Shown here piece after piece: positions 698 to 24,057 of a stretch of 64,000 nt of DNA. The notes beneath the pieces are model-generated. The model was given only the letters and a program-made list of their open reading frames with translations. It made no database searches and was not told the origin of the DNA. The position numbers were made by a program, and so were the translations under genes. Positions within the stretch are counted from its first letter, which is position 1; every line of letters begins with the position of its first letter. Location: NCBI GenBank assembly GCA_028284905.1, contig JANQQU010000072.1, positions 124,001-188,000 of the forward strand, given 5' to 3'. This stretch comes from Calditrichia bacterium. GTDB lineage: Bacteria; Calditrichota; Calditrichia; RBG-13-44-9; J075.

Positions 698-3217
698 ATG
701 CAATCTTACGACAGACAAGAGATATTAGCCGTTTTTTCAAATGTGCTTAACCGCAGAAAATGGCTAATCGTTGCCATGATTGTAGTGCTGCTAATTCCTA
801 TTGTTTATTACAATGAGACAGCAACACCAATTTATTCTTCGAATACCACCGTCGTATTTGAGGAGTTTCGTGGCAATGTATCCACTATCGAGTTAAATGT
901 TTCGCGAGAATTGTTTTTTAGCAACCAGTTGGTTGAGATAAAAAGCTTTTCTTTTGCAGAAGACATTTACCAGCAATTGCCCGCCGAGCATCGGGACCTT
1001 TTTGCTTTTCCGGATTCAACGGAATATCAGTACAGCCGAAAAAGCATCATTGTATCTCAAATTCAAGGTGGCATCAATGCTGTACCGGTGAAGACTTCGG
1101 GAATTATCAAAATCATTTATCGTTCGCATAGCCCGATTCTTTGTCGGGAAGTTGCGAATCTCGCCGCTGAAGTTCTTGGGACTCGTTATACAGAGAATAA
1201 ACAAACCGGCGTTGGCGATCGGCGTGAGTTTATTGCAAACCAGCTGCAAAGATATAAAGCTTTGCTGGATTCCTCCGAAGAACGTTTGAAGATATTTAAA
1301 TCGGCCACTCAAATAACTTCTATCAATCGCCATTCTGAAGATGTTATGCGCCGTTTGACGGAAGCAGAATTGCAGATGGATCGCCTGAATACCCAGATAC
1401 GAACAATTCAGGAAGACCTTAAAACAGTAGATGAGAAACTGGCTGAACAACAGACAGATATTGTCCCGGAAGCGCAAAACCTTGGTACCAGCTGGGCGCA
1501 AGTGCTTCGTGAGAAACAAATCTCTCTCTCCGTCCAATTTCAGGACTTGAAAATGCAGGGATATCCGGAAGATCATCCGAAAATGATTGATTTGCAAAAG
1601 GAAATCACTGCTGTTCGTGCAGAATTATCGGAAAAAGTAAAAGAATTGGCTGAGACGCAAAATGCTCTCGATCCGATTTTACAATTGCAAAAGTTCGTCC
1701 AGCAAAAACTGGACATGCAGCTTCAGCTGGAATCTCTGCAAGCACAAAAGAATTCGGTTCAATCTAATATCGACAGATATTCAGGAGAGTTACGGGCATT
1801 ACCAGACAAGGAATTTTCCCTGGCCCGCTTAATTCGGGAAAGAGATTTGAATGAAAAGATTTACACACAGCTATTGGAACGCCATGAACAAGCCAAAATA
1901 GCTTTTGTCGAAGAAACCAAAAGTGTACGTATTATTGATAAGGCTTATGTGCCGTTTACCCCGATTAGTCCGGTGAAGTCTGTCAATTTGGTCGTAGGCG
2001 TCTTACTTGGTACGATTCTCGGCCTGATGACAGCGTTTCTGTTGGAATTCAGAAACAACACGATTCGCTCTCATGGTGAAATTGAACGCATTACCGGCTG
2101 GCCGATTATAGCAACAATTCCCGGCATGGATAAATTTTCCAAGGGTAAATTCAAAAGCGGAAATGCTGCGAAAGCGACCGATCAGGAACGCACTTACCGG
2201 GCGTTAATTTCCAGCCTGGAGCCACACACGGTTATCGCTGAATCCTATCGTATGCTCCGCACGAATTTGCAATTTTCCGGTATCGGACGTGAACATCGAA
2301 CGATTTTAGTAACAAGCCTGAACCCCGGTGATGGAAAGACAACAACTTTAACCAACCTCGCAGTTACTTTTGCTGGTTTCGGTAACAAAACATTGGTTAT
2401 CGACTCCGACCTTAGGATTCCGCGCGGCCACACCATCTATGGTGTTTCCAAAGAGATGGGCGTTACGGATTTGCTGGTTGCATTGAATGATCTGGATAAC
2501 ATTCTTGCCCGACCGAAAGCAGATAATCACAGCGTTGAGCCTGAAGCGTCAATGGCCAATGGAAATGGTAAACCTGCGGCCGAAGTTGAGGAAGGATCCA
2601 CAGCATTAGCCAAAATCACAATTGATGACATCGATGAGCCAACCTTTGATCCGGGTAATGATGGACCTACGGTACAGCGAAGCAGAAAGAAAGGCAGAAT
2701 AATCGGCCAGGTTGTTGATGATCATGAAGAAGATGAACCACAGAACGAAGAAAGTCAACCAGAAGCGGTCGAGAGTGAGGAATCTCAGGAAACTCAGTCT
2801 CCCGGAGAAGGTGATCGTTTATTGCCGATTCGAGAACTTTTCAGAAGAGTTGTTAAACCAACAAACATTCAGAATCTCGACTTTATTTCCAGCGGGAAGA
2901 AATTAACTGATCCCAGTCAATTTCTCTCGATCAAATCCATGCCGATTATCCTTCAGAAATTTGGAAATATGTACAATAATGTCCTGATTGATTCCGGTCC
3001 GTTATTGCTGGTTGATGAAACCCTGATGCTCTCCGGCATTGTCGATGCAGTGGTGGTTGTTTTGAATCCGGATCGTTGTAATCCGAATGTTCTGGCACAG
3101 GCAAAGAAAATGCTGGACAGTGCAAACGCGAATGTTCTCGGCGTTGTTTTAAACAATTGTGAAGTGAATAAGCAGTATTCACAATATTATAACTATTACG
3201 ATTCAGAAGAGGCGTAA
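698..3217 (+). CDS. Wzc/GumC-like polysaccharide co-polymerase with BY-kinase domain
   Basis: Controls polysaccharide chain length and export at the inner membrane. The N-terminal Wzz domain starts with a membrane helix at about residues 21-38. Long coiled-coil stretches follow (about 170-400), then a second membrane helix (about 427-448). The C-terminal tyrosine kinase domain has a Walker A motif (NPGDGKTTT, about residue 545), a Walker A' motif (LVIDSDLRIP, about 567) and a Walker B-like VLIDSGPLL (about 763). Between A' and B lies an acidic low-complexity insertion of roughly 105 residues (about 603-708), which is unusual for the family. The C-terminus is a tyrosine cluster (YSQYYNYY), the usual autophosphorylation tail. 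At 839 residues it is longer than the common 700-750, because of the insertion. It is the first gene of the EPS locus. The ribosome binding site is weak. Confidence 0.93.
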   Translation: MQSYDRQEILAVFSNVLNRRKWLIVAMIVVLLIPIVYYNETATPIYSSNTTVVFEEFRGNVSTIELNVSRELFFSNQLVEIKSFSFAEDIYQQLPAEHRDLFAFPDSTEYQYSRKSIIVSQIQGGINAVPVKTSGIIKIIYRSHSPILCREVANLAAEVLGTRYTENKQTGVGDRREFIANQLQRYKALLDSSEERLKIFKSATQITSINRHSEDVMRRLTEAELQMDRLNTQIRTIQEDLKTVDEKLAEQQTDIVPEAQNLGTSWAQVLREKQISLSVQFQDLKMQGYPEDHPKMIDLQKEITAVRAELSEKVKELAETQNALDPILQLQKFVQQKLDMQLQLESLQAQKNSVQSNIDRYSGELRALPDKEFSLARLIRERDLNEKIYTQLLERHEQAKIAFVEETKSVRIIDKAYVPFTPISPVKSVNLVVGVLLGTILGLMTAFLLEFRNNTIRSHGEIERITGWPIIATIPGMDKFSKGKFKSGNAAKATDQERTYRALISSLEPHTVIAESYRMLRTNLQFSGIGREHRTILVTSLNPGDGKTTTLTNLAVTFAGFGNKTLVIDSDLRIPRGHTIYGVSKEMGVTDLLVALNDLDNILARPKADNHSVEPEASMANGNGKPAAEVEEGSTALAKITIDDIDEPTFDPGNDGPTVQRSRKKGRIIGQVVDDHEEDEPQNEESQPEAVESEESQETQSPGEGDRLLPIRELFRRVVKPTNIQNLDFISSGKKLTDPSQFLSIKSMPIILQKFGNMYNNVLIDSGPLLLVDETLMLSGIVDAVVVVLNPDRCNPNVLAQAKKMLDSANANVLGVVLNNCEVNKQYSQYYNYYDSEEA

Positions 3218-3594
3218 AAAATTACTTAGCGTTTTAATTTAGCTGCATCAATTCATTCGCTTAATATCCCTTTATTTTACGTGCAATAGATTTGAAGTAA
3301 TTTGGTAATTGAATTTTTTTCCGGCCGTATCTGGCCGGATACAAAATGGAAAATGCAGGATGCATTTACCACATGTCAAGATGTGGTATCCATTGTTTTA
3401 ATCGCAGACAGATCGGGATGATACTGCAATTCATACCTTTCTTTTCAGAATCCCCTAACATTTGATAAACGGTATTGCTGAAATGCGATTTTCAGGCGAG
3501 TCCTGATTGTACTAAAAAGTGTTTATTCTCCCCTGGAGAGGAAAAGAGGAGCAGGGGAATTTAATTAGACTAATAAATCTGGTGGAGTTTTTAA
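3218..3594. other. Intergenic spacer with two hairpins
   Basis: No gene is seen. Two inverted repeats are visible: CCGGCC-GTATCT-GGCCGG at 3321-3338 and ACCACAT-GTCAAG-ATGTGGT at 3368-3387. Neither is followed by a T-run on the + strand, so they are not classical terminators. A good ribosome binding site (GGTGGAG) sits just before the GTG start at 3595. Confidence 0.45.
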
Positions 3595-4221
3595 GTGGAA
3601 CTGATTAATCTACTGCTATTAGGAGGCATCTTTGCTGCAGTAACAGCTTATGTCTGGCTACGTTATTATTCGTGGAAGAAAAGCGTAAATACTGTTGCCA
3701 CTGTGTTGGAAGCTGCAGCTATTCCGTCCTACAGGCAGTCTCAATCTCATATTAACCGGGAAATTTCCCGGGTTCGGCGTTACCAGCGCGCTTTATCGGT
3801 AATTGCCGTAAAAAGAAAATCTCCGATAGATAGAACCTATCGTAATGGCAGCATTCCCGGCACAAATGGGCATGCATCTTCTAATGGCCATGCTATGGGT
3901 CAAATGGAATTTTTGATGTATGGTGCCATATTCCGTGATGCCTTGAGAGAAACTGACATTATCTCATATGATGGATCTAACAACCTGTTTTTGCTGGTAT
4001 TACCGGAAACATCCCGTTTAGAATCACTGCAAACGATGGATCGCTTAAACAAAAAAACCGGTGGTAAAATTTACCGCGAACTGGAGGTTGGCATCGCAGA
4101 ATTTCCGGAGCAGGGATTTATCGTTTCGGATCTGGTAGAAAATGCCATTCTGGACGCCCAAAGCCAGCAAAGCGTAGAAGCACGACCGGTAGATTCCAAA
4201 GCAAATAAGAACTTGAACTAA
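3595..4221 (+). CDS. Membrane-anchored degenerate GGDEF-like protein
   Basis: A 208-residue protein with an N-terminal membrane helix (about 5-22), then a segment that looks like the front half of a GGDEF domain (HINREISRVRRYQRALSVIA, about 52-71). Where the GGDEF signature should be, the sequence is YDGSNNLFLLVLPET (about 125-139). The active-site glycines and acidic residues are missing, so diguanylate cyclase activity is unlikely. The end of the fold (VGIAEFPEQG) still matches. It could be a non-catalytic nucleotide-sensing or scaffolding protein for the EPS machinery. The start is GTG, supported by GGTGGAG seven bases upstream. A glycine/asparagine-rich loop (about 84-103) interrupts the domain. 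Confidence 0.6.
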   Translation: MELINLLLLGGIFAAVTAYVWLRYYSWKKSVNTVATVLEAAAIPSYRQSQSHINREISRVRRYQRALSVIAVKRKSPIDRTYRNGSIPGTNGHASSNGHAMGQMEFLMYGAIFRDALRETDIISYDGSNNLFLLVLPETSRLESLQTMDRLNKKTGGKIYRELEVGIAEFPEQGFIVSDLVENAILDAQSQQSVEARPVDSKANKNLN

Positions 4222-4305
4222 ATCAAGGTAAGCTATCGGTTCTACATTTACAGTTCAACTTCTTTAGAATAATTCCTGAAAACTATAGCATTATAAGGAT
4301 GGAAA

Positions 4306-5025
4306 ATGTTAAGTCTAGGCCGTAATCCTGGTCTGGTGGATCATGCCAAGGACCTCAAAGAGGTTCTGGATATTCATACAGCCAAGAGTTGGTATCTCAA
4401 AGGATATTCCTATCCCCTTAAAGACCAAACCAGATATATAAAGTTCAAGCGAGCGTTCGACCTCATCGTCGGAACGATACTGGTTATTCTTATTTCCCCG
4501 GTATTAATTCTTTGCGCAATCATTATCAAAATTGACAATCCCGGCCCGGTACTATTTGTCCAAAAACGCACGGGACTGGGCGGGCATCGTTTCAAAATTT
4601 ACAAATTAAGAACCATGCGCACTGATGCCGAGGAACTGAAGAAGAAATATGCACATCTGAACATACTGGAGCCACCGGATTTCAAAATCCCTAACGACCC
4701 CCGTATTACCCGGATTGGTCATTTTCTCCGGAAAACATCTCTGGACGAATTACCGCAATTCTTTAATGTGGTAAAAGGAGATATGAGTTTAGTTGGCCCG
4801 CGGCCGACCTCTTTCAGTTCCTCGACCTATGACCTTTGGCACACTGCACGCCTTGCCTGCAAGCCCGGTATAACCGGCCTTTGGCAGGTATCCGGCAGAA
4901 ACGACATCGAATTCGACGATCGCGTTCGCCTGGATGTTGATTACATGAAGTATATGTCTTTTTGGCTGGACATGCGAATTATCCTGCGCACTTTTACCGC
5001 CGTTATCAATAAAGAAGGAGAATAA
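4306..5025 (+). CDS. Initiating sugar-phosphate transferase (bacterial sugar transferase family)
   Basis: Transfers a sugar-1-phosphate to undecaprenyl phosphate, the first step of repeat-unit assembly on the cytoplasmic face. It has the membrane hairpin at about residues 45-70 ([20 protein letters not shown]), then the family motifs [22 protein letters not shown], the catalytic Asp-Glu pair in [17 protein letters not shown] and [12 protein letters not shown]. At 239 residues it resembles the short PglC/WcaJ-core enzymes with an extra ~40-residue head and without the large N-terminal membrane domain. It ends one base before the next gene, which suggests translational coupling. Confidence 0.93.
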
Positions 5026-5026
5026 T

Positions 5027-6190
5027 ATGATTCTGACTATGATTATTCTCTTTTGGGTGTCGGTAGGCACGATTATCTATGCGTACGTTGGTTTTACTGC
5101 ATTGGTAGTAGTTGTCGGTTGGTTATTAAATCGAAAAGTGAAGAAAGCGCCGATTACACCGTCGATCACTTTATTGATTGCAGCATACAACGAAGAAAAA
5201 AACATCTCCGAAAAAGTCAAAAATTCTCTCGCGCTAAATTACCCCAAAGACAAGCTGGAAATAATGGTCGCATCCGATGGATCCAGCGATCGCACCCACG
5301 AGATAGTTTCTCAATATGAAGCTCAGGGTGTTAAATTATTGCGCTTTGAACGGCGGGGCAAAATATTCGCGCTGAACGACTCTATCGCCCAGGCAAGCGG
5401 AGAGATTATCGTTTTTTCCGATGCCAATACGTTTTATGATGAAGACTCGCTGCTAAAACTCGTAGAAAACTTTGCCGACCCGGCAGTTGGCGGCGTTTGT
5501 GGTAATCAGTGCCATTATAAAAATAAAACCCGGGACAATGCCGGACAGGGTGAGAGCCTCTACTGGAATTATGACAAGGCATTAAAACAATTTCAGAACC
5601 AGACCGGCAGTATTGTATCTGCAGATGGTGCAATCTATGCGATCCGGAAAGATCTCTACGAAATGCCCCCTTCCACTGCTGTTACCGACGATTTTGCAAT
5701 TTCCACCGGTGTAATTGAGAAGGGATATCGCCTGGTTTTTGAAAACGATGCACTGGCTTATGAAAATACCATGCCGGGCGCCGAAGAAGAATTCCGCCGG
5801 AAAGTTCGCATCATGAACCGTGGTTTGCGCGGTGTGATTATGCGAAAAAAATTACTCAATCCCTTTCGCTATGGCTTTTACTCGGTTACATTGTTCAGCC
5901 ATAAAGTGCTGCGGAGATTGGTGCCCTTTTTTCTCATTTTTCTGTATATTGCCAGCCTTTTTCTGGTGAATACGCATATTTTTTACACAACGGCGGCGAT
6001 TGCCCAAACAGTTTTTTACCTCTGGGCAGGTATTAGTTATCTCATGCGCCAGAGCAATATCGGCGGGTCCAAATTGTTTTATATTCCATTTTTCTATTGC
6101 ATGGCAAATTTAGCAGCATTTATTGCAGTCTTAAATATTATTGCCGGCCGGAAAATTGAATTCTGGAATCCGCAGCGCCAAAAAGCATAA
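5027..6190 (+). CDS. GT2 family membrane glycosyltransferase
   Basis: A 387-residue processive-type family 2 glycosyltransferase. It has an N-terminal membrane helix (about 2-27) and a GT-A core with LLIAAYNEEKNI, ASDGSSDRTHEIV and the metal-binding FSDANTFYD. Further motifs SADGAIYAIRKDL, VTDDFAIS and KVRIMNRGLRG are in the positions of the acceptor and R/QxxRW-like elements. Three hydrophobic helices near the C-terminus (about 297-375) anchor it in the inner membrane. The ribosome binding site (AAGGAG) lies inside the end of the preceding sugar-transferase gene, so the two are probably translated together. The sugar specificity cannot be read from the sequence. Confidence 0.9.
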   Translation: MILTMIILFWVSVGTIIYAYVGFTALVVVVGWLLNRKVKKAPITPSITLLIAAYNEEKNISEKVKNSLALNYPKDKLEIMVASDGSSDRTHEIVSQYEAQGVKLLRFERRGKIFALNDSIAQASGEIIVFSDANTFYDEDSLLKLVENFADPAVGGVCGNQCHYKNKTRDNAGQGESLYWNYDKALKQFQNQTGSIVSADGAIYAIRKDLYEMPPSTAVTDDFAISTGVIEKGYRLVFENDALAYENTMPGAEEEFRRKVRIMNRGLRGVIMRKKLLNPFRYGFYSVTLFSHKVLRRLVPFFLIFLYIASLFLVNTHIFYTTAAIAQTVFYLWAGISYLMRQSNIGGSKLFYIPFFYCMANLAAFIAVLNIIAGRKIEFWNPQRQKA

Positions 6191-6303: not shown

Positions 6304-7269
6304 ATGCGTTTACTAATTGCCAGTTCTATCCATCCTCCCAAGGTGGAAGCGCTTAAGAAAGAACACGATGTTGTCTGTGCATTTAATGCGAAAGAAGACG
6401 TCCTGAAAGAAGTTATTAAAGACCGGGAAGTATTGATCTTCCGCAGTGGTGTACAAATAACCGCCGAAGTAATGGCATGTGCGCCGGATTTGAAACTGTT
6501 AATCCGGGCTGGCTCCGGTTTCGATAATGTAGACCTTGACTATGTAAAGGAAAGAGGATTGGGTTTTATTCGAATTCCTGAGCCGGGTGCAAAAGCCGTT
6601 TCGGAGATGGCGTTTGGATTAATGCTGGCATTATCGCGTAATATCGTCAATGGCGACAAACTTTGGAGAGCCGGTCGCTGGGCCAAAAAGGAACTGACCG
6701 GATATTTACTGACCAAGAAAACCCTTGGTATTATTGGTTGTGGCAATATTGGCACGCGTACCGCAAAGCTGGGTGATGCCTGGGGAATGCGCGCTATTGG
6801 CTGCGTCGAGAATCCTACCCCACCCCGCGGTAAAGAAATGATGGAAAAGAGTCACGTGGAGTTAATGGATTTTGATCAGGTAGTTGCCCAATCCGATTAT
6901 CTCTGTATTCACGTCCCGAAAAATGAGAAAACTTTAAACCTCATTGACAAATCGGTTTTTGAAAAGATGAAAAAGGGGTCTTACTTGGTTAACCTCGCCC
7001 GTGGCGGTGTTGTTAATGAAACAGATTTACGGGAAGCACTGCTTAGTGGTCATCTTGCCGGTGCAGGTATGGATGTTCATGAAAAAGAAGGTGAAGGAAA
7101 CATCTCTCCCCTGGCAGATCTTGACAATGTTGTATTGACACCTCACATCGGTGCGCAGGCTTATGATTCCCAGGAAGAAATCGGCGACAGAATTCATGAA
7201 ATTATAAATGATTTTATGGCGAAAGCTTCCGAAGAAGCCACAACAGAAGCAACTGTCGCCGGTGTATAA
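6304..7269 (+). CDS. D-isomer-specific 2-hydroxyacid dehydrogenase (possible phosphonopyruvate reductase)
   Basis: A 321-residue NAD(P)-dependent 2-hydroxyacid dehydrogenase of the phosphoglycerate dehydrogenase superfamily. The Rossmann motif is LGIIGCGNIGTRTAKLG (about 141-157). The catalytic Arg is in NLARGGVVNE (about 230-239) and the catalytic His in LTPHIGAQ (about 279-286). It lacks the C-terminal ACT domain of many SerA enzymes. It lies 40 bp upstream of the PEP mutase gene, and the pair ends at a strong terminator. Reduction of an unstable 2-oxoacid made by the mutase (phosphonopyruvate to phosphonolactate) is therefore an attractive role, but this is inference. A housekeeping serine-pathway enzyme is the alternative. 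The start has an excellent AGGAGGA ribosome binding site. Confidence 0.85.
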   Translation: MRLLIASSIHPPKVEALKKEHDVVCAFNAKEDVLKEVIKDREVLIFRSGVQITAEVMACAPDLKLLIRAGSGFDNVDLDYVKERGLGFIRIPEPGAKAVSEMAFGLMLALSRNIVNGDKLWRAGRWAKKELTGYLLTKKTLGIIGCGNIGTRTAKLGDAWGMRAIGCVENPTPPRGKEMMEKSHVELMDFDQVVAQSDYLCIHVPKNEKTLNLIDKSVFEKMKKGSYLVNLARGGVVNETDLREALLSGHLAGAGMDVHEKEGEGNISPLADLDNVVLTPHIGAQAYDSQEEIGDRIHEIINDFMAKASEEATTEATVAGV

Positions 7270-7309
7270 CTTTTAGTATAAAAAATATTTCAAAACAGGG
7301 ATTTAAGAC

Positions 7310-8221
7310 ATGAAAAAGACAACACAATTCAGAGAGATGCTTCAGTCCAAGCAATTGGAATTCATCATGGAAGCACACAATGGTTTGAGCGCCAAGATTG
7401 TTGAAGAGGCTGGTTTTAAAGGCATCTGGGGCAGCGGACTTTCTATTTCCGCGGCAATGGGCGTTCGGGACAACAACGAAGCAAGTTGGACGCAAGTGCT
7501 GGAAGTCGTCGAATTTATGAGCGATGCGACCAGTATTCCGCTAATGCTCGATGCAGACACCGGTTATGGCAATTTTAACAATGCCCGTCGTCTGGTAAAG
7601 AAGCTTGAACAGCGCAACGTTGCCGCAATGTGCATCGAAGACAAGCTCTTCCCAAAAACAAATTCTTTCATCAATAGCGAGCAGCAGCCATTGGCCGATA
7701 TCGACGAGTTCTCCGGAAAGATCAAGGCGGTAAAAGATAGCCAGACCGATCCGGACTTCAACTGTGTTGCCCGGGTAGAAGCATTTATTGCCGGTTGGGG
7801 ATTAGGCGAAGCATTAAAGCGTGCTGAAGCTTATCACAATGCTGGGGCAGACGCGATTCTGATGCACAGCAAAATTAACACCGCAGACCAGATTCTCTCC
7901 TTCATGAAAGAATGGAAAGACACCTGCCCGGTAGTTATTGTTCCCACAATGTATTATGATACCCCGACCAACGTTTTCGAAGAAGCCGGCGTTAGCCTGG
8001 TTATCTGGGCGAACCATCTGTTGCGCTCCAGTATTTCTGCCATGCAAAATACTGTTAAGCAAATTTATGATGATCGCTCCCTGGCCAATGTAGAAAAAGC
8101 AATTGTGCCGGTAAAAGAGATCTTTCGTCTGCAAAATGCCCAGGAATTGAAAGAAGCTGAGAAAAAGTTCCTGCCGCAGAAGAATGGCAAAACTGAAGAG
8201 AAGCCGGCAGAAGTTAACTAA
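7310..8221 (+). CDS. pepM: Phosphoenolpyruvate phosphomutase
   Basis: Converts phosphoenolpyruvate to phosphonopyruvate, the C-P bond-forming entry step of nearly all phosphonate biosynthesis. The protein (303 residues) carries the mutase-specific gating loop [10 protein letters not shown] (about 107-116) that separates mutases from isocitrate lyase-like and oxaloacetase relatives. It also has the metal-site aspartates in LDADTGYGN (about 82-90) and the substrate loop [14 protein letters not shown] (about 42-55). From memory it is very close to the mussel enzyme across its length. No phosphonopyruvate decarboxylase or 2-aminoethylphosphonate transaminase is nearby. The only adjacent enzyme is the dehydrogenase just upstream. 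The location inside an EPS locus suggests that phosphonate groups decorate the polymer. Confidence 0.95.
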
Positions 8222-8248
8222 GCGGTTTTTCTCCATGAAAACTTTTAA

Positions 8249-8278
8249 GCCCTGTGCCTTTCGCACAGGGCTTTTTTT
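8249..8278 (+). terminator. Rho-independent terminator after pepM
   Basis: A 9-bp perfect GC-rich stem (GCCCTGTGC/GCACAGGGC) with a CTTTC loop is followed by seven T. It closes the transcript carrying the dehydrogenase and pepM, so the ATP-grasp gene downstream probably has its own promoter. Confidence 0.9.
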
Positions 8279-8558: not shown

Positions 8559-9818
8559 ATGAGAGAGCAATATCAATTTAAAAATCCTGAGAATCCCTAT
8601 GCGATTGTTATCGCATTGGATTGCTTTACCGGCCTGCAGACTGCGCGTATCCTCAATAAGCGTAAAGTGCCGGTAATCGGTATCGCCGGCAAAAAAGATC
8701 ATCCTTGCGTTAAAACCAAGGCGGTTGAAAAGGTCTTTTCCGCCAACGTTGCCACGGAAGACTTTATAAATCTCCTCGAAGAGATCGGTCCATATCTGAA
8801 GCAAAAAGCAGTACTGTTTCCCTGTTCGGATATGAGTGTTTTTGAAATTTCCCGGCACCGGGAGCGCCTGGCACCCTGGTATCATATTTCTTTACCGGCA
8901 CACAGCACGGTCGAAATGCTCATGAACAAATTTCAATTTTATTCCTTCTGTCAGAAAGAGGGCTTTCCCATCCCTGGTACTCATTTCCTGAAAAGCCGGG
9001 CAGATGCGGAAAAGGCCGCAAATTCCCTGAATTTCCCCTGCATGGTTAAACCCCCGTTAAAGACGCCGCTATGGGAAAAGAATGCCGAGAAAGTATACAA
9101 GGTGGAAACACCGGAAGAATTTCTGAAGCTCTATGATCACGTCCATCAATGGGCGGATATTCTCATGATCCAGGAATGGATTGCCGGCGGCGATGATACA
9201 TTGTTCTCACTGAATTGCTACTTCGATAAAGACTCTCGTCCCCTGGCGACATTCATTGCCAGAAAAATTCGCCAGTGGCCAATCGAAACCGGAGTCAGCG
9301 CATTGGGCGAAGAATGCCGGAATGATGTTGTTCTGGAAGAATCTGTCAGGTTCTTCGAGTTTGTAAAATATCGCGGACTCGGCTATATGGAAATGAAAAA
9401 AGATGCCCGCAGCGGTAATCACTATATGATCGAACCGAATATCGGTCGCCCAACCGGCCGCTCGGCAATTTCGGAGGCTGGTGGCGTAGAGCTACTCTAC
9501 ACCAAATATTGCGAAGTGCTTGGCCGCCCGTTGCCGGAAAATCGCACCCAGACTTACAAAGGCGCCAAGTGGATCTACTTACGCCGGGATTTGCAGGCCG
9601 CAATGGCCTATTGGAAGCGTGGAGATCTATCCTTCGGTCAGTGGTTAAAAACCATGCGCGGCAAGAAGCATTACGCCTTGTTTTCCCTAACAGATCCGGT
9701 GCCGTTTTTTGAAGACTTACGGGTTACTTTTATTGAAAAAGTTTGGAAGAAGCGCGGAGATGCCGCGCCTGAAACCGCTAAAAAAAGCATGGCAACGGCG
9801 GGTAAAAGAGCAGGTTAA
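8559..9818 (+). CDS. ATP-grasp ligase of the exopolysaccharide locus
   Basis: A 419-residue ATP-grasp protein. The first ~110 residues form a pre-ATP-grasp Rossmann-like part (IVIALDCFTGLQTARILNKR). The ATP-grasp core follows at about 120-330, with the ATP-binding lysine region FPCMVKPPLKTPLW, the hinge segment MIQEWIAGGDD and the metal-binding end GYMEMKKD...MIEPNIGRPTGRS. Such enzymes form carboxylate-amine bonds through an acyl-phosphate. Related genes occur in exosortase-type EPS loci, where they may attach amino acids to sugars. Here an amide-forming step on the polysaccharide, or on a phosphonate precursor, is possible but unproven. The ribosome binding site is AGAGG, eight bases before the ATG. 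Confidence 0.8.
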   Translation: MREQYQFKNPENPYAIVIALDCFTGLQTARILNKRKVPVIGIAGKKDHPCVKTKAVEKVFSANVATEDFINLLEEIGPYLKQKAVLFPCSDMSVFEISRHRERLAPWYHISLPAHSTVEMLMNKFQFYSFCQKEGFPIPGTHFLKSRADAEKAANSLNFPCMVKPPLKTPLWEKNAEKVYKVETPEEFLKLYDHVHQWADILMIQEWIAGGDDTLFSLNCYFDKDSRPLATFIARKIRQWPIETGVSALGEECRNDVVLEESVRFFEFVKYRGLGYMEMKKDARSGNHYMIEPNIGRPTGRSAISEAGGVELLYTKYCEVLGRPLPENRTQTYKGAKWIYLRRDLQAAMAYWKRGDLSFGQWLKTMRGKKHYALFSLTDPVPFFEDLRVTFIEKVWKKRGDAAPETAKKSMATAGKRAG

Positions 9819-9913: not shown

Positions 9914-11071
9914 ATGAGCAACCAGAACGGACACGCAAATCAAAAAACCGTAGATTATGATATTTTTGGTGTGGTAGGCATTCGCCTGATAAATCCCACC
10001 GAAAAGGATGCAGCGGCAGTTGTAGATCAGCTCGGCCCTGCCCACGCACCATTGCAACGGGAGCCGGATATTGTTATCCGCTTTCACCGGGAGATGAAAA
10101 TACCGGATCTGATTTTCCTCGGCCTCAATTCCGCCGGATACAACGAAGATGGATTCTACATTTTGCGTAGCGACAAGGCGAATTGTAAAGCACGCATCCC
10201 TTTCGAAGATATCGGCAACAAACAGCTGGTCATCGATTGTGAAAGTGGCTTGCGGGCAGTACCGCTGCTGATTGCTTTAACAAATCTCGCTTTTCTGAGC
10301 AAACGCTACCTGCCGTTGCACGCTTCGGCATATCTCTACAATGGCGTGGCAAACATGGTCACCGGCTGGGCGAAAGGTGGCAAAACCGAAGGTCTGCTCT
10401 CCTTTGCCAATCATGGCGCTGCCTATATCGCAGATGAATGGACGATTATCGCCGAAGGCGGTGAAGAGATGTTTGGCATTGCCGAACCGATCCGTTTATG
10501 GGACTGGCAGTTCAAGCACATCCCTCATGTGCAGCACAAAATCAAGACTCAGAAAAAAATGCTTTTTAAGGGCATCCACACCATGGATAGCGTTGGAAAA
10601 ACGTTTAGCAATTCTCCATTGCGAAAAACCTTCCCGGTTAAATTGTTAAATGAAGCACTGCCAGCCTTTAAAAGACAGCTTAATGTGCGTTTGCAACCGC
10701 ATGATATTTTCCAGGATCGCTTTTGCAAATCGGCGCCGCTGGATAAAATCTTTTTGATTATGAGCCATGACAGTCCGGCAATTACGGTAAAACCGTTCGA
10801 TCCGCTGGCGATTGCAGAGATGATGATTAGCTCGAATGAATACGAGCATATTCCCTTATTGGAGCACTATCGGGCATTTACCTTTGCTTTCCCGGAAATG
10901 CGTAATCCCTTTCTGGATAATATGCGCGATTTACAGGCAGAGTTGATCCGTAAAGCATTTAAAGGGCGGGAGGCATACCAGGTATTGCATCCGTATCCGG
11001 TTGATTTTGAACCGTTGTATCAGGCTATGAAACCATATTGTGAAACTAAACCGAAGGCGATTGAACAATGA
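9914..11071 (+). CDS. HPr kinase-like (HprK superfamily) protein
   Basis: A 385-residue protein whose central part resembles the HPr serine kinase C-terminal domain. The P-loop is MVTGWAKGGKTEGLL (about 147-161), followed by the acidic segment AAYIADEWTII that matches the D-E pair of the family. There is no HPr or PTS gene in the window and no DRTLA-like N-terminal HprK domain, so carbon-catabolite control is unlikely. HprK-related proteins of this kind are known from EPS/exosortase loci, where their substrate is unknown. The gene overlaps the next one by 4 bp (ATGA), so the two are translationally coupled. Confidence 0.75.
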   Translation: MSNQNGHANQKTVDYDIFGVVGIRLINPTEKDAAAVVDQLGPAHAPLQREPDIVIRFHREMKIPDLIFLGLNSAGYNEDGFYILRSDKANCKARIPFEDIGNKQLVIDCESGLRAVPLLIALTNLAFLSKRYLPLHASAYLYNGVANMVTGWAKGGKTEGLLSFANHGAAYIADEWTIIAEGGEEMFGIAEPIRLWDWQFKHIPHVQHKIKTQKKMLFKGIHTMDSVGKTFSNSPLRKTFPVKLLNEALPAFKRQLNVRLQPHDIFQDRFCKSAPLDKIFLIMSHDSPAITVKPFDPLAIAEMMISSNEYEHIPLLEHYRAFTFAFPEMRNPFLDNMRDLQAELIRKAFKGREAYQVLHPYPVDFEPLYQAMKPYCETKPKAIEQ

Positions 11072-12285: not shown

Positions 12286-13725
12286 GTGCAGATGAGTTAT
12301 GTAGATACAACTGGTGACACAATCACCGATACAGAAGCCTTAAAATCGTTTGTTAAAAGTGTCTTTGAAAAATTGGACCGGGCAAGTATCCGCTATTGTG
12401 TTTTCCGGGATTACAATCAGATAGAAGTGCCGGAGGAAAGCAAGGAAATCGATTTACTGGTAGACCCCCGGGACATGAAAAAGCTGGAAGATTTACTAGC
12501 TAAAAACGGTTTTGCCCCCTTACCCTCCTGGGGACATGAACCGCACAATTTCTTTGTCACCTACAATAAATCACTGGGCATGTGGTTAAAGCTGGATGTG
12601 ATTACCGCTTTGCGTTTTGGCAAACCGGTAAGTGCATTGGAGCTGGATTTTACCTCCAGCTATTTAACCAACCGCACCCGCCGGGAAATCGCCTTTGTTC
12701 CCACGACGGAAGATAAATTTCTGGTACTATTGTTAAAATGCATTATCAATGACAAAAAATTTAATGACGTCCGGAAAGCGCGCCTGCAGGAAATGTTCAT
12801 GGAAATCCATGAAGACCCATTTGCCCGGGAACGCCTGGAAAAGAATCTGGCTAAATATCTGCCCGGTATTCTCGACTGGCCGGCAATTTCTGCCGCATTT
12901 CAATCCCAACAACCGGAGCAATTGCTTGCAACGGGAAAAGCAATTCGACAACGCCTGTTCCGGCAGGCGCCATTGGCTGTAATGGGGCGCCACGTCCATA
13001 CCCGTTTGATGAAGCGCATTAGTCCGCTGTTATTTATGACGAAGCATCACGGCATCTCCGTTGCTTTGCTGGCACCGGATGGCGGGGGAAAATCAACCCT
13101 GGCAAAATCGCTGATCGCTCAACGGCACCTCAACGCCCGTTTTATCTACATGGGGGAAAATCAGAAGGCCAGTAATATTGGGCTACCGACCACTCCCTGG
13201 TTTAAAAAGAAGAAAAAGCAAAAGGGGAAAAATCCCCTGGAAAAAATACTCGTGGGCATTTTCAACTTTCCGAACACACTACTGGAGCAATGGTACCGGC
13301 TATCGGTCTCTTTTTACTATCGCTACCGGGGGCGTTCGGTAATTTTTGATCGCTATATCTACGATGCCTGGCTGAATCCCCGGAAAAAGTCGCTGGTAAA
13401 AAAGGTTCGACGGCTGCTGGTTGAGGGGACTTATCCGACACCGGATCTGGTGCTCTTCCTTGACGCACCGGGCGAAGTGCTCTTTGCCCGCAAGGGTGAG
13501 CATAATCCCGAGTGGTTGGAAAGCAAACGTCAGGCTTACCTGGCCCTGCAACGGCAATTACCGAATATGCTGGTTCTGGATGCAACACAATCGCCCCAGA
13601 AGGTACAGAAAGACGCGATTGACTTATTGTGGAAATTCTATCGCACGCGAGACTTAAGGAAAACTTTGAATGGCAAACATGGCAACACCCACGAATCCGA
13701 AAAAGCGGAAAAAGGACGACTCTAA
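12286..13725 (+). CDS. Nucleotidyltransferase-like domain fused to a thymidylate-kinase-like domain
   Basis: A 479-residue two-domain protein. The N-terminal part (about 15-125) has the layout of an MNT-type nucleotidyltransferase: an acidic pair in EIDLLVDPRD (about 54-63) and a third acidic residue in LKLDVITALRFG. The C-terminal part (about 258-460) is a P-loop kinase of the thymidylate kinase type (LLAPDGGGKSTLAKSL), with FIYMGENQKASNIGLPT, VIFDRYIYDA and a lid-like LFARKGEHNPEWLESK. It aligns by eye along its length with the free-standing kinase at 20625-21353. True dTMP kinase is unlikely in this setting; a sugar- or polymer-directed kinase is my inference. The start is GTG with GGAG upstream (ATG at 12292 is an alternative). 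The last 56 bp overlap the flippase gene. Confidence 0.75.
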   Translation: MQMSYVDTTGDTITDTEALKSFVKSVFEKLDRASIRYCVFRDYNQIEVPEESKEIDLLVDPRDMKKLEDLLAKNGFAPLPSWGHEPHNFFVTYNKSLGMWLKLDVITALRFGKPVSALELDFTSSYLTNRTRREIAFVPTTEDKFLVLLLKCIINDKKFNDVRKARLQEMFMEIHEDPFARERLEKNLAKYLPGILDWPAISAAFQSQQPEQLLATGKAIRQRLFRQAPLAVMGRHVHTRLMKRISPLLFMTKHHGISVALLAPDGGGKSTLAKSLIAQRHLNARFIYMGENQKASNIGLPTTPWFKKKKKQKGKNPLEKILVGIFNFPNTLLEQWYRLSVSFYYRYRGRSVIFDRYIYDAWLNPRKKSLVKKVRRLLVEGTYPTPDLVLFLDAPGEVLFARKGEHNPEWLESKRQAYLALQRQLPNMLVLDATQSPQKVQKDAIDLLWKFYRTRDLRKTLNGKHGNTHESEKAEKGRL

Positions 13726-15247
13726 AACTCAGATTCGCGGCTCCAGCCTTTTACTGGTCGGCAAATTTTTATCGATCGGTGTAAATATGGCAACCCAGGT
13801 TTTGCTGGTTCGGTATTTGACAAAAGCGGACTTTGGCGCCTGGGGCTATACATTATCTATCGTATTGTTTTTTCAGACATTCTGTACGTTAGGACTGGGG
13901 CGTTCCCAAACCCGTTTTATTCCGATTTATCATGAAAAAGAAGAATTTGACAAGCTCTTTGGCACAATCGTTCTCATTGTCGGCACTATTCTGACCACCA
14001 GTGTACTGATCATCAGCGGGATATTCCTCGCACCGGAATTAATCAGCAACCTGGTCAGTGGAGAAACCCAGCCAATTTACCTGATTTTTATCATGATATT
14101 TATGATGCCGGTAGATGCCATCGACCGCGTAATGGAGGGGCTCTTCGCCAGTTTTGTCAATCCAAAGGCGATCTTTTTCCGGAAATATATCTTCACACCG
14201 ATATTTCGATTTTCGGTGGTACTTTCGCTGGCAATGTTGGAAAGCTCGGTTTTTTTCCTCGCTTATGGATATCTCTCAGCGAGCATTATTGGCGTACTAA
14301 TCTATATCTGGACATTTTACAAGCTTCTGAAAAAAGAAGGCTTGTTGTCGGTTTTCTCCTTCAAGAACATTAATGTTCCCGCTAAGGAAATATTTGCCTT
14401 TACGATTCCGCTAATGACCTCCGATCTGCTCTCAGTGTTAATGCATACTTCAGATACTATTATTCTTGGTTATTTTCATGCAACGACCGCGGTTGCGGCC
14501 TACCAGGTGATTATGCCACAGGTTCGGGTCAACAAAATGGTGATGACCAGTTTTTCCTACCTGTTCACGCCCCTGGCAGCCCGACTATTTGCCAAGAATG
14601 ATACCAAGGGGATTAACGAGCTATACTGGCAGACAGCAATCTGGCTGGCGGTATTAACCTTTCCGATGTTTGCACTGACGTTTTCCCTGGCGGAGCCATT
14701 GACAGTGCTGCTTTACGGCGAACGCTATGCCGACTCCTGGGTCTATCTTGCATTATTGGGATTCGCATATTATTACAACGCTTCCCTCGGTTTTAACGGC
14801 GTCACACTAAAAGTAATCGGCAAGGTTAAATTTATCATGTACATCAATCTTGCTGCAGGGGTCGTCAATATTGCCGGAAATTTGCTGCTTATTCCCAAAT
14901 ACGGTGCACTTGGTGCAACCATCGCCACAGCCGGTAGCATGATGATTCACAATACCCTGAAGCAGCTCGGTCTAAAATATCTCGGTGGATTGAAATTATT
15001 CGACATGCGTTACATGAGCGTGTATTTCATCATCTATGGTTGCGGTATTGGTCTTTTTCTCTGGCAATTGCTGGCCCCGCTGAATGCCTATGCCATGTTT
15101 ATTATCGGGGCAGTACTCTCTTTCGTTGTGTTGCGCTTATGTCAAAGCAAAATGAATGTAGAAGAAACCTTTCCCGAGCTGCTGAAGATACCGATGCTGG
15201 ATAAAATTCTCGGTGTCAAAAAATCACCAAAACCACGCAAGGCCTAG
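13670..15247 (+). CDS. Wzx-like polysaccharide flippase (MOP superfamily)
   Basis: A 525-residue integral membrane protein with about twelve to fourteen hydrophobic helices. It belongs to the polysaccharide biosynthesis/MATE-like superfamily that flips undecaprenyl-linked repeat units to the periplasm. It opens with a short lysine-rich cytoplasmic head and the typical GSSLLLVGKFLSIGVNMATQ helix, followed by YLTKADFGAWGYTLS. The start lies inside the preceding kinase gene (56-bp overlap, different frame). With the ligase/polymerase at 17131 and the BY-kinase at 698 it completes a Wzx/Wzy-type pathway, although no outer-membrane exporter is in the window. Confidence 0.9.
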   Translation: MANMATPTNPKKRKKDDSKTQIRGSSLLLVGKFLSIGVNMATQVLLVRYLTKADFGAWGYTLSIVLFFQTFCTLGLGRSQTRFIPIYHEKEEFDKLFGTIVLIVGTILTTSVLIISGIFLAPELISNLVSGETQPIYLIFIMIFMMPVDAIDRVMEGLFASFVNPKAIFFRKYIFTPIFRFSVVLSLAMLESSVFFLAYGYLSASIIGVLIYIWTFYKLLKKEGLLSVFSFKNINVPAKEIFAFTIPLMTSDLLSVLMHTSDTIILGYFHATTAVAAYQVIMPQVRVNKMVMTSFSYLFTPLAARLFAKNDTKGINELYWQTAIWLAVLTFPMFALTFSLAEPLTVLLYGERYADSWVYLALLGFAYYYNASLGFNGVTLKVIGKVKFIMYINLAAGVVNIAGNLLLIPKYGALGATIATAGSMMIHNTLKQLGLKYLGGLKLFDMRYMSVYFIIYGCGIGLFLWQLLAPLNAYAMFIIGAVLSFVVLRLCQSKMNVEETFPELLKIPMLDKILGVKKSPKPRKA

Positions 15248-15262
15248 AAAAATTAAAGAGCA

Positions 15263-15283
15263 ACTATGAACTTTGAACTTTAA
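15263..15283. repeat. Short heptamer repeat (ACTWTGA type)
   Basis: Three consecutive 7-nt units ACTATGA, ACTTTGA and ACTTTAA lie in the 50-bp gap before the next gene. This is the smallest of several period-7 or period-8 repeats found in gaps of this window. Confidence 0.5.
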
Positions 15284-15297
15284 AAAAAGAATATCAC

Positions 15298-17010
15298 ATG
15301 GAAAAGCATATTATTCTGGATTCAACAATTAAAGCTGATTATGAACCCGGCACCAATCAGAGCGAAGATCTCGCTTGCGCAGATTGGCGTTTTCTTTTAC
15401 CGAGCATGGAAATCGAAAAAGTGCTCTGCATCGGCGCGCCGAAAATTTCGACACTAAAAGTGCTTTCGAAAATGGCCGGGCAAATTTATATCGCCAACGC
15501 GGCTCAGACCAGCCACATAGATGCAACCCTGGCGGAATTAAACAATGTCACTGTTCAGGAATATGACGAATTGCTCTTTAAGGATGAAACCGTCGGCTTA
15601 ATCCTCCTCTCAAACGAAGGAGCTGTTCAACGCGTCGTAGAAGATAAAAAATATCTGCACGAGCTTTTCCGAATCCTTATTCCGGATGGCAGTATTTATT
15701 TTGAAAACAAGGGCTTAAAGAAAATTTTCAAACTGGAAAAGCGCATGGAAAAATGGCTCAACAATGGCCTGAGCGCTTCCCACCAAAAATTTTGGTTAAC
15801 AACACAATCCGGTGAAATGCGTACCGCTTTGCCGGTAAGTGAACGGGACATCTCCAGCTTCTTCTTCCAAAATGTCCTTTTTGGTCAGTCGTTTAAAAAA
15901 CGAATGATGAGTAAAGCAGGACGCATGCTCAGTGAGGTCGGCTTAATTAGCTATGCCAATCAAAAACGGGCGATGCTTATTCAGAAAACAGCGGCCAATG
16001 AAAACGCACAGCGGCCACCGAAATTTCTGAGAGAGCTGGCTAACAATGCCGGAATCGATATCGATCGTTTCCGATTCGGCTTATCAGCACGGGGAAAGTA
16101 CAACTCCAACAAAATCGTTTTTTACCTTTTTGATAACCAACGCTACAATGCGGAAATGATTATCAAAATGACCCGCATTGAGCGTTTCAATTGCCGCCTG
16201 GAACATGAATGGGAAATGCTCTCCACAGTAAAGAGCAACAAGTTCGTGCCGGATGGCACCTACCCCGCCCCATTGATGTTCGGCTATCATAAAAACCTGG
16301 CAGTGTTGGGGCAAAGTGCTGTCAAAGGTCATCCTTTCCGCACGCAAACCAGCGCCAAGCCGGATTGCCCCATCGCTGCAGATGCAATCAAATGGATAAC
16401 AACTCTTGGTAAGAATTCGGCAAATTATGAGCTGGCGAGTCCGAAAGAGGTCAGCAAGTCTCTGATTAAACTTTTTGACATCTTTTCCGGGATTTACAAA
16501 TTATCCGCAGCGCATTCGGATTTTCTCCGCGGGCAAATTGAAAGTATTGCGAAAAGCAAGGTGCCGTTTCCGGTAATTTTTGGCCATGGTGATGCCGGTA
16601 GCTGGAATGTCATTGTTCGCGATGGCAAGGCACTCTTCCTCGATTGGGAAGCTGCGGAACCGCAGGGAATGCCACTTTGGGATATGTTCTACTTCATTCG
16701 CAGTTTTGGTAACTGGGTATCCCGGGAGCAACACAAAAGCCTGGATACGCTGAAAAATTTCAACAGCAATTTTGTAGAGAAGAGTCCATTAAGTGAATTA
16801 TTGGCAAAATCGATCAACCAATATTGTGATGCCATTAAACTGGATAAATCCCTGGTAGCACCAATGTTCTATACTTGCTGGATGCACCGGGCATTGCGTC
16901 AGGCGACCTGGGCAGACAATCTTCAGACGGCGCATTTCGTCAGCGTTATCCGAATGTGCATCGACCAACACAAGGCAGCAGGACTCCAATCGCTATTTAC
17001 TTTAAAATAG
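15298..17010 (+). CDS. Fusion of a methyltransferase-like domain and an APH-fold kinase
   Basis: A 570-residue protein. The first ~230 residues look like a diverged SAM-methyltransferase fold (DWRFLLPSMEIEKVLCIGAP, then LHELFRILIPDGSIYFENKG), but the glycine-rich SAM loop is not canonical. The C-terminal ~330 residues are an aminoglycoside phosphotransferase/choline kinase-type domain. Its catalytic loop is FGHGDAGSWNVIVRDGK (about 427-443) and its metal-binding motif LFLDWEAAEPQG (about 445-456). The domain order and both parts match, as separate genes, the pair at 18746-19396 and 19471-20526. A small-molecule or glycan kinase working on the EPS precursor is likely; antibiotic resistance is not supported by context. 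Confidence 0.7.
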   Translation: MEKHIILDSTIKADYEPGTNQSEDLACADWRFLLPSMEIEKVLCIGAPKISTLKVLSKMAGQIYIANAAQTSHIDATLAELNNVTVQEYDELLFKDETVGLILLSNEGAVQRVVEDKKYLHELFRILIPDGSIYFENKGLKKIFKLEKRMEKWLNNGLSASHQKFWLTTQSGEMRTALPVSERDISSFFFQNVLFGQSFKKRMMSKAGRMLSEVGLISYANQKRAMLIQKTAANENAQRPPKFLRELANNAGIDIDRFRFGLSARGKYNSNKIVFYLFDNQRYNAEMIIKMTRIERFNCRLEHEWEMLSTVKSNKFVPDGTYPAPLMFGYHKNLAVLGQSAVKGHPFRTQTSAKPDCPIAADAIKWITTLGKNSANYELASPKEVSKSLIKLFDIFSGIYKLSAAHSDFLRGQIESIAKSKVPFPVIFGHGDAGSWNVIVRDGKALFLDWEAAEPQGMPLWDMFYFIRSFGNWVSREQHKSLDTLKNFNSNFVEKSPLSELLAKSINQYCDAIKLDKSLVAPMFYTCWMHRALRQATWADNLQTAHFVSVIRMCIDQHKAAGLQSLFTLK

Positions 17011-17130
17011 CGATTCCGAATTTCGTGATGGAAATGACCGTACTGCGCTCAATATTACCATATTTTGGTTCTTAATGGTCCCGGAAATCACCCAATCTAT
17101 TTAATTATCGACAAGAATGTCGGAAACATT

Positions 17131-18738
17131 ATGATTACGTCTTCAAACGCCAGCACTTTTAAAAAAATCATTGCAGCCAGTATTGGGGTTATAGGAATTC
17201 TAATGCTGATGGTGCTCTCTATGCTAAAAAGCCAGCCGTTTATTTTAACCGGTCTGGCATTTCTGATGATCGGCATATCGATATTTATATACTGGCCGAG
17301 CATGGGCACATATATCGGATTATTTGTTATCCATACAAACCTTTCGGTAATCATGTACAAATTCCACGGTGTGCCACAGGCTGCCGCCGGTGCGACATGG
17401 CTAACGATCGGGATTCCCTTTACCATATACGTCTTCATTCTGCGTAAAAAAGTAATGATAGACTATACCTTTGTCATTATGATTTTCTTCCTGATGACAA
17501 CGTTGATGTCTTATTTTATGGCAGTAGATCAGGCAATGGCATCGGATTGGATTTTCACCTATTTCATCGAAGGAATGGTGCTTTATTTCTTTATCCTGAA
17601 TATCATTCGGGACCGTGTTAGCATGCGTAATGTGGTTTGGACATTGATGCTATCCGGGACATTACTTGGCAGCTTAACGCTTTTTCAGGAAGTAACGAAA
17701 TCCTATGACAACAACTTTATGGGACTGGCACAACGGCAAACAGCATTTGGCACCGAAGAAATTCCCGGTGGCGATACCAGTGGTATCGTTAAGGAACGTG
17801 TAAAGGTTCGCCGTGCACATCGTGCCGATGGTCCGATCGGCGACCCAAACCGTTTTTCTCAGATTATGTTATTAATTTTCCCGCTGGTCATGTTTCGGGT
17901 ATGGGATGAAAAAAAGACTTTAATGAAAGGCCTGGCCCTGTTAGGAACAATCCTCACTCTCTGTGGCATCTTTCTCACCTATTCCCGGGGTGCTTTTGTG
18001 ACGCTCTGTTTTATCATCGCCTTAATGACACTGATGCGATACATCAAACTCGGGCAGGTCATTGCAACGGTAACGGTGCTGCTCACCGTGGTTCTGATAG
18101 CTTCACCGGGATATTTTAACCGGATGGCCTCTATTGGGGGCATCGAAGGACTATTTTCAAGCGAGGCAACCCATGAGACAGACACGGTGATTCTAAGCCG
18201 TACGACTGAAATGCTTGCGGCATTTACCGTCTTTCTCGATTATCCGGTATTTGGGGTAGGTCCCAACCAGTACACCCGTCATTATTCGGAAGCGTACATG
18301 GCCAATCCGGATATTGCATTTAAACATATGAAGTCTACCCGAGCGGCGCATTCGCTGTATTTTCAGATGCTCGCCGAGTTGGGCTTGCTGGGATTTTCCG
18401 GCTTCATGTTGATCATTTTTTACACTCTTTACAAGCTCATGCAGGGACGAATATTCTGGAAAGATAAAGACAGCGAACTGGCGAATTTTGCCACTGGCTG
18501 TATGCTGGGAATTATGACTTATTTAACAACCTCGATCTTTTTATCCTTCGCTTATCATCGCTACATATTTATGATGATCGCGATTTCCGGTGCAGTAATT
18601 CAGTTGTTGAATTCCTTAAAAATCGAATATCTGGCTAAGAACAACCAGTTACCGGACGGCGTAGAGCTGCCCGACAGCAATGGTATGGAAATAAACTCTG
18701 GTCAAAAACCAAGAACCGAACCACAAATGTTTGCCTGA
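17131..18738 (+). CDS. O-antigen ligase/polymerase family membrane protein (Wzy/WaaL-like)
   Basis: An integral membrane protein of about 535 residues with ten or more helices. It has the O-antigen ligase family core: LTYSRGAFVTLCFIIALMTL, a large periplasmic loop, and FGVGPNQYTRHY...RAAHSLYFQMLAELGLLGF. It polymerises or ligates lipid-linked repeat units in the periplasm. The frame is open back to a TTG at 17065. The ATG at 17131 is preferred because it starts just ahead of the first membrane helix and the upstream extension has no family character; the ribosome binding site is weak for both. Confidence 0.85.
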   Translation: MITSSNASTFKKIIAASIGVIGILMLMVLSMLKSQPFILTGLAFLMIGISIFIYWPSMGTYIGLFVIHTNLSVIMYKFHGVPQAAAGATWLTIGIPFTIYVFILRKKVMIDYTFVIMIFFLMTTLMSYFMAVDQAMASDWIFTYFIEGMVLYFFILNIIRDRVSMRNVVWTLMLSGTLLGSLTLFQEVTKSYDNNFMGLAQRQTAFGTEEIPGGDTSGIVKERVKVRRAHRADGPIGDPNRFSQIMLLIFPLVMFRVWDEKKTLMKGLALLGTILTLCGIFLTYSRGAFVTLCFIIALMTLMRYIKLGQVIATVTVLLTVVLIASPGYFNRMASIGGIEGLFSSEATHETDTVILSRTTEMLAAFTVFLDYPVFGVGPNQYTRHYSEAYMANPDIAFKHMKSTRAAHSLYFQMLAELGLLGFSGFMLIIFYTLYKLMQGRIFWKDKDSELANFATGCMLGIMTYLTTSIFLSFAYHRYIFMMIAISGAVIQLLNSLKIEYLAKNNQLPDGVELPDSNGMEINSGQKPRTEPQMFA

Positions 18739-18745
18739 GAGGAAT

Positions 18746-19396: not shown

Positions 19397-19470
19397 AGTT
19401 TTCCATTTACAACTGAAGCAGCATAAAACTTAAAAGCATTAAAACACGACATAAACGATCGACATTTTCT

Positions 19471-20526: not shown

Positions 20527-20624
20527 AGCAGTTCACTTTTTTACTACCGGCACTGGGGAAATACAGTTTTTGCTGAAAATGTCAATCCGGTACAAACAAA
20601 ACTGAAAAAGAGTATTTAAAGAAT

Positions 20625-21353: not shown

Positions 21354-21548
21354 TACCACCAGACATTCCAGACTTTCATTGTTCATTAAAACAATTTGAA
21401 TTAACAGAAGCGCTCGATTTTCGAAATCCGGCGCTTTCCGAAAATAGCCGAGTGTGCCGGAAGTTATTCGGCCGGAAATCCTCAGAACTATTTTCAAATA
21501 CAATAATTACTGTTTCACAGAATCAGTCACCGGAAACAAACAGCGCTT

Positions 21549-22514: not shown

Positions 22515-22573
22515 CAGAAAAAAATCAGCAGCAATTGATACAATAGTTTTAAAAAAAGGTGACTAGAAGGATA

Positions 22574-23917: not shown

Positions 23918-24057
23918 GGGATTATTAATCGTGAACTCTATCTGGCACCGATCGCAGCACAGGCTCACCGGCACCAGTTCAGAAACCTGTATAAAATGAG
24001 TCTATAAGAAATGGATATCTCAGCGTGTGGCTGATTGAATATGGAGGTAATTAATAC

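Follow-up and report, generated by a model that had tools for sequence, protein, structure and literature searches.

The equilibrium of the PEP mutase (PepM) reaction favours PEP more than 500-fold, and the accepted means of pulling it are a decarboxylase, an aminotransferase, a 2-hydroxyacid dehydrogenase, which gives phosphonolactate, and homocitrate-synthase-like enzymes (PMC12871164). The dehydrogenase branch is used in the synthesis of valinophos by Streptomyces durhamensis (PMC12871164, PMC12723261, PMC11867202). There, VlpB is the phosphonopyruvate (PnPy) reductase, and such coupling draws its driving force from the oxidation of NAD(P)H (PMC11867202); the ATP-grasp enzyme VlpF then esterifies valine onto the phosphonate alcohol (PMC12723261). 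In the title under which PMC12871164 cites their paper, the authors of the reductive branch call it broadly conserved. The phosphonoalamide pathway likewise consists of PepM, a short coupling step and subsequent ATP-grasp ligation (PnaB/PnaC), but couples by transamination through PnaA (PMC11867202). Most PepM proteins carry additional fused domains, chiefly nucleotidyltransferases, and these fusions are linked to surface phosphonates (PMC6697681).

The window analysed here is the whole stretch of 64,000 nucleotides from a Calditrichia bacterium whose first lines stand above. It contains a 2-hydroxyacid dehydrogenase gene followed, after 40 bp and on the same strand, by pepM (Table 1). A first-pass annotation had described this arrangement and the diagnostic loop of PepM, and the open reading frames, TIGR02320 and the Mytilus PEP mutase structure 1m1b all agree with it. 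The dehydrogenase matches PF02826 (179 bits) and PF00389. PepM scores 399 bits on TIGR02320 (cut-off 319.55) and matches 1m1b over its full length (E 9.5e-139). When the two are aligned, the ten-residue loop is intact, and the protein carries the EDKXXXXXNS motif that sets PepM apart from other members of the isocitrate lyase family. It is the only pepM copy in the 8.55 Mb genome, which is listed as 100% complete. The pair had also been described as ending at a strong terminator. The terminator is present, but the functional unit extends past it: the ATP-grasp gene on its 3' side, which that annotation had overlooked, is conserved with the pair.

Table 1 Features of the phosphonate locus in the window
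Feature	Position	Strand	Remarks
D-2-hydroxyacid dehydrogenase, proposed phosphonopyruvate reductase (PDH clade)	6304–7269	+	321 aa; PF02826/PF00389; clade support 100/100
PEP mutase (PepM), stand-alone, no fused nucleotidyltransferase	7310–8221	+	303 aa; TIGR02320, 1m1b
Intrinsic terminator 3' of pepM	8247–8273	+	11-pair stem, 7 GC pairs, T run
ATP-grasp ligase, third core member	8559–9818	+	Predicted fold and conserved company of the dehydrogenase
Polysaccharide assembly, upstream: Wzc-type autokinase, WbaP-type sugar transferase, GT2	698–6190	+
Polysaccharide assembly, downstream: MOP flippase, O-ligase/Wzy-like, GT4, amidotransferase	13670–25962	+	Also holds the 20625 kinase, APH and deacetylase genes
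HprK/PEPCK-fold P-loop protein, accessory	9914–11071	+	pLDDT 86.9; PDB: PEPCK 3.2e-4, HPr kinase 4.3e-4, resemblance at superfamily level only; no Pfam match
Thymidylate-kinase-like P-loop kinase, accessory	20625–21353	+	PF02223, 31.9 bits
Second thymidylate-kinase-like domain, C-terminal, behind an N-terminal domain with no Pfam match	12286–13725	+	PF02223 at residues 348–443; aligned with the 20625 kinase
Polysaccharide deacetylase-like protein, accessory	21549–22514	+	PgaB-family matches under cut-off; relatives in L012, L015, L024, L123
APH-type phosphotransferase family protein, accessory	19471–20526	+	PF01636; relative in L012

We compared the window with 80 pepM loci from public genomes, the closest that were found. 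An orthologous dehydrogenase (51–62% identity) lies directly upstream of pepM in ten of them, and a genome search adds an eleventh (L123), making 12 loci with the window included. The ten belong to Chloroflexota (L011, L012, L015, and L020), Ignavibacteriota and kin (L014, L016, and L028), Planctomycetota (L024, of the isolate Candidatus Laterigemmans baculatus, and L026), and Thermodesulfobacteriota (L047). Counting the window's own, the pair occurs in at least five phyla. In L020, L026, L028, and L123, the end of one frame and the start of the next share 4 bases. Chance pairing is excluded, since in the 70 related loci that lack the pair no relative of the dehydrogenase lies within reach of pepM. 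Within each lineage the dehydrogenase is rare: it occurs in one of 40 genomes in the window's phylum, two of 400 in Chloroflexota, two of 294 in the class of L014, and one of 392 in the phylum of L024. This sporadic spread points to horizontal transfer. No close relatives of the dehydrogenase or the ATP-grasp enzyme are found in the plasmid and phage collections.

In the PepM tree, the dehydrogenase-linked mutases may group together, at a node without support. The PepM of L123 (genome G294, contig C18, 8812–9705, minus strand) is only 32% identical, with the motif EDNLFPKRNS, and scores 249 bits on TIGR02320, which is under the cut-off yet is its best family. The same operon retains the dehydrogenase (51%), the ATP-grasp enzyme (47%), the kinase, and the HprK-like protein. 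Because L123 keeps the dehydrogenase beside so distant a PepM, the dehydrogenase tracks the mutase function and not one mutase lineage. The published EDKXXXXXNS filter would overlook this PepM.

The dehydrogenase has the same fold and the same catalytic Arg, Glu, and His as D-3-phosphoglycerate dehydrogenases of the SerA/PHGDH type, which are its best PDB matches. With only 321 residues, it has no room for the C-terminal regulatory domains of long SerA. The first-pass annotation had suggested its phylogeny as a check, and the tree sets it apart from housekeeping SerA. The dehydrogenases form a single clade (13 rows, support 100/100) when analysed with SerA-type paralogues from the same genomes. 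Every such genome has at least one of these paralogues, and none is more than 39% identical to the dehydrogenase. The tree placement and the identity gap together reject a housekeeping SerA identity.

Catalytic residues R233, E262, and H281 are conserved in the clade, and R47 is kept in common with SerA-type enzymes. The clade-specific changes gather on the substrate side and comprise F46, V50, S71, R90 (usually N), PGA at 94–96 (usually GNT), H259 (replacing F), and G263 (replacing P). These changes would fit an altered substrate with a charged phosphonate. The loop after Rossmann strand beta-2, the site of the acid from which cofactor choice is read, is also altered.

The likeness of this enzyme to VlpB is one of proposed function. 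As proxies for it we tried three pepM-family records from actinobacterial plasmids and rejected them, as they had phosphonopyruvate decarboxylase (Ppd) or no dehydrogenase of the PDH kind. A 2-hydroxyacid-dehydrogenase-like protein that a Kitasatospora plasmid pairs with a distant PepM-like protein is 26% identical and shares R47, S71, and R90, but its catalytic Glu fails to align, and its branch is too long for its tree position to be trusted. On plasmid NZ_CP115451.1 of Kitasatospora cathayae (79–86 kb), genes for a dTMP-kinase-like protein, a divergent PEP-mutase-like protein (EDSRYPKCNS), a NUDIX protein, a 2-hydroxyacid-dehydrogenase-like protein, a radical SAM protein, and an HExxH protein lie in a row, possibly a phosphonate–peptide hybrid cluster.

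No decarboxylase had been seen beside the pair, and the absence extends beyond the locus. In a genome-wide profile search, the best Ppd match in the window's genome, part of a 658-codon open frame, scores 45.6 bits against a cut-off of 312.5; as a positive control, the true Ppd of L060 scores 419.6 bits with the same model. The TIGR02326 cut-off of 400.8 is too strict for the AEP transaminase (PhnW), as a true AEP transaminase scores only 337 bits. We therefore compared raw scores, and the best in the window's genome is 135.8 bits. The search for ppd and phosphonate transaminase genes that the first-pass annotation had suggested thus yields no such pair elsewhere in the genome, and by these profile scores we reject a Ppd or AEP transaminase partner encoded at a distance. 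Nor does Ppd exceed the cut-off anywhere in 12 related genomes or in the ten dehydrogenase genomes of the 80-locus set.

The other pepM loci present the opposite picture. We searched the loci with two proteins of L060, its Ppd and its AEP transaminase, and with the nucleotidyltransferase domain from the L018 fusion; the identity of the queries was verified. Among the 70 loci without the dehydrogenase, Ppd is found in 53, AEP transaminase in 40, and a nucleotidyltransferase fused to PepM in 57. Each is found in none of the 11 dehydrogenase loci, some of which lie on short contigs. In the window, the scanned open reading frames of the polysaccharide locus give no match to an NTP transferase fused to or beside pepM. 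PntC-type surface phosphonate loci, with 2-AEP and PepM–nucleotidyltransferase fusions, the majority type among PepM (PMC6697681), share with the window a close PepM family (67–76% identical) and a glycan-related setting. They differ in having Ppd, a transaminase, or a nucleotidyltransferase, whereas the dehydrogenase loci have none of these and carry the dehydrogenase and the ATP-grasp ligase.

The protein encoded 3' of the terminator has weak family matches by sequence. Its predicted structure (pLDDT 89.7) has PurK (3orr) as the best PDB match in Foldseek (E 3.9e-18), followed by the L-amino acid ligase RizA (4.8e-16) and biotin carboxylase, and the modelled fold is that of an ATP-grasp enzyme. 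Among its relatives, K124 and K164 are invariant and E292 and N294 nearly so. Wherever the contig extends to this position, the dehydrogenase loci carry a relative with 46–57% identity. In the 80-locus set, the ATP-grasp gene accompanies the dehydrogenase in nine of ten loci and occurs in one of the 70 others (Fisher p 4e-10); in L026, the exception among the ten, the contig ends about 180 bases after pepM. Relatives with more than 45% identity occur in exactly two of the 400 Chloroflexota genomes, the same two that have the dehydrogenase; all others are at or below 30%. In L036 (Chloroflexi MAG CTSoil_045), PepM, the ATP-grasp enzyme, and the kinase are present, and a dehydrogenase ortholog is absent from both the locus and the rest of the genome. 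The ATP-grasp protein there has a gap spanning E292 and N294, which is decay or an assembly error.

In the window, the three genes are embedded in a polysaccharide locus. Several accessory genes recur with them. Relatives of the kinase encoded at 20625 (35–45% identity) lie near the dehydrogenase in L012, L014, L016, L020, L024, and L123, and also occur in L036. The HprK-like protein has relatives in L014, L016, L024, L123, and L124. Alginate-lyase-family proteins are encoded in L011, L020, and L024. In L028 and L047, no polysaccharide genes are recognised near the trio. Therefore, the core is three genes, and the link to a glycan is not universal.

Other genes of the window deserve mention. 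The N-terminal domain of the 12286–13725 protein looks nucleotidyltransferase-like by eye (..EIDLLVDP..), unlike the stand-alone 20625 kinase. A 1624-residue protein with six InlB-type repeats (PF18998) is encoded at 26932–31806 (+), and its N-terminal part recurs near the dehydrogenase–PepM pair in L011 (twice), L015, L020, and L123. At 52357–54180 (+), an in-frame TGA (53539–53541) at a thioredoxin-type site, FFATW-TGA-PVC, is the sole interruption of a 607-residue frame. The product is a candidate selenoprotein (UxxC); it has repeats, and its C-terminus is sorting-like. The TGA has a small hairpin on its 3' side, in a region no stabler than shuffled sequence. At 44755–47562 (−), a 935-residue open reading frame appears by eye to be a transaldolase fused to glucose-6-phosphate isomerase; the adjoining zwf-, gnd-, and rpiA-like frames make this a pentose phosphate gene cluster.

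We propose that the window and its relatives encode a three-enzyme phosphonate module, in the window set within a polysaccharide locus, that works by reduction and ATP-grasp ligation and probably has a glycan as its destination. We put the probability of this reading at roughly two in three. PepM would convert PEP to phosphonopyruvate, and the dehydrogenase would reduce this with NAD(P)H to phosphonolactate (2-hydroxy-3-phosphonopropanoate), pulling the unfavourable mutase step. These two steps are likely. As the module has an ATP-grasp enzyme in place of a nucleotidyltransferase fusion, we propose that phosphonolactate then enters an ATP-dependent ligation, a step that we somewhat favour. The ligase would activate a carboxylate, supplied either by phosphonolactate itself or by an amino acid that then goes onto the phosphonolactate hydroxyl, and the resulting conjugate would be an amide or an ester. 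It would probably be destined, in most hosts and in the window's, for the polysaccharide that the neighbouring genes make, and the thymidylate-kinase-like and HprK-like proteins would provide further processing steps. Taken alone, delivery to the glycan is finely balanced.

The first-pass annotation had gone as far as a locus that makes phosphonolactate, or a derivative, to decorate an exopolysaccharide. Its reductive route survives as the best reading, because there is no decarboxylase and transaminase pair elsewhere and the dehydrogenase falls outside SerA. Decoration is plausible, because polysaccharide genes surround the gene in the window and in the majority of its relatives, but goes no further than that in view of L028 and L047. 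A more specific version is tentative: across at least five phyla, the ATP-grasp ligase would link phosphonolactate through a carboxylate to an acceptor, either a sugar or a lipid-linked one, and the route would dispense with both decarboxylation and CMP activation. Against the three-enzyme reading as a whole stand L036, which has no dehydrogenase, the two trios with no polysaccharide genes, and the terminator between pepM and the ATP-grasp gene in the window.

The same chemistry could instead yield a diffusible, phosphonopeptide-like small molecule resembling valinophos, in which case polysaccharide loci would be only frequent insertion sites for a mobile module. The enzymes of the two readings overlap, and only the destination differs. 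The trios of L028 and L047 and the sporadic occurrence among genomes fit such a module, and phosphonopeptides are made by ATP-grasp ligases elsewhere, but most loci also share kinase, HprK-like, deacetylase, flippase, or chain-length genes, and we consider a diffusible product doubtful.

It is unlikely that the dehydrogenase has a different 2-oxo or 2-hydroxy acid as its substrate while an enzyme elsewhere in the genome, such as an aspartate-type aminotransferase or a homocitrate-synthase-like protein, pulls the mutase. Family membership alone leaves the substrate unfixed, and the phosphonoalanine and phosphonomethylmalate branches do exist, with enzymes so similar to housekeeping ones that a genome search cannot exclude them (PMC11867202, PMC12871164). 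However, the dehydrogenase follows PepM and not the polysaccharide genes, as the bare trios of L028 and L047 illustrate, it stays beside even the distant PepM of L123, and no aminotransferase was seen to be common to the loci. A catabolic direction, with the dehydrogenase oxidising phosphonolactate and PepM returning phosphonopyruvate to PEP, would run downhill, and absent a pull the pair would run that way, as the mutase equilibrium lies toward PEP (PMC12871164). No dedicated uptake transporter is seen beside the pair, though, and an ATP-consuming ligase and polysaccharide assembly genes adjoin it instead, making catabolism highly improbable.

The module of the window thus resembles that of valinophos in having PepM, a 2-hydroxyacid dehydrogenase, here proposed to give phosphonolactate, and an ATP-grasp ligase, but differs in its polysaccharide setting. 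To arrive at dihydroxypropylphosphonate, valinophos synthesis also needs an additional kinase and an additional reductase, a pair not recognised in the window. The reductive branch itself is already known, and relatives of the PDH-clade dehydrogenase may already be listed in the original paper on it. In the literature searched, we found no description of the three-gene unit with the ATP-grasp enzyme, of its exclusion of Ppd and nucleotidyltransferase, or of its repeated occurrence among the polysaccharide genes of several phyla. The pairing of the reductive branch with an ATP-grasp ligase, where neither decarboxylation nor nucleotidyl activation takes part, appears to be a new variation. If the proposal is correct, the reductive phosphonate branch would extend from antibiotic-like peptides to the surface polysaccharides of little-studied phyla, and a sequence signature could be named for a phosphonopyruvate reductase family distinguishable from SerA. 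It would also predict a surface phosphonate, phosphonolactate or a conjugate of it, other than the usual 2-AEP, and would offer a test of how phosphonates are attached in loci that lack the usual nucleotidyltransferase.
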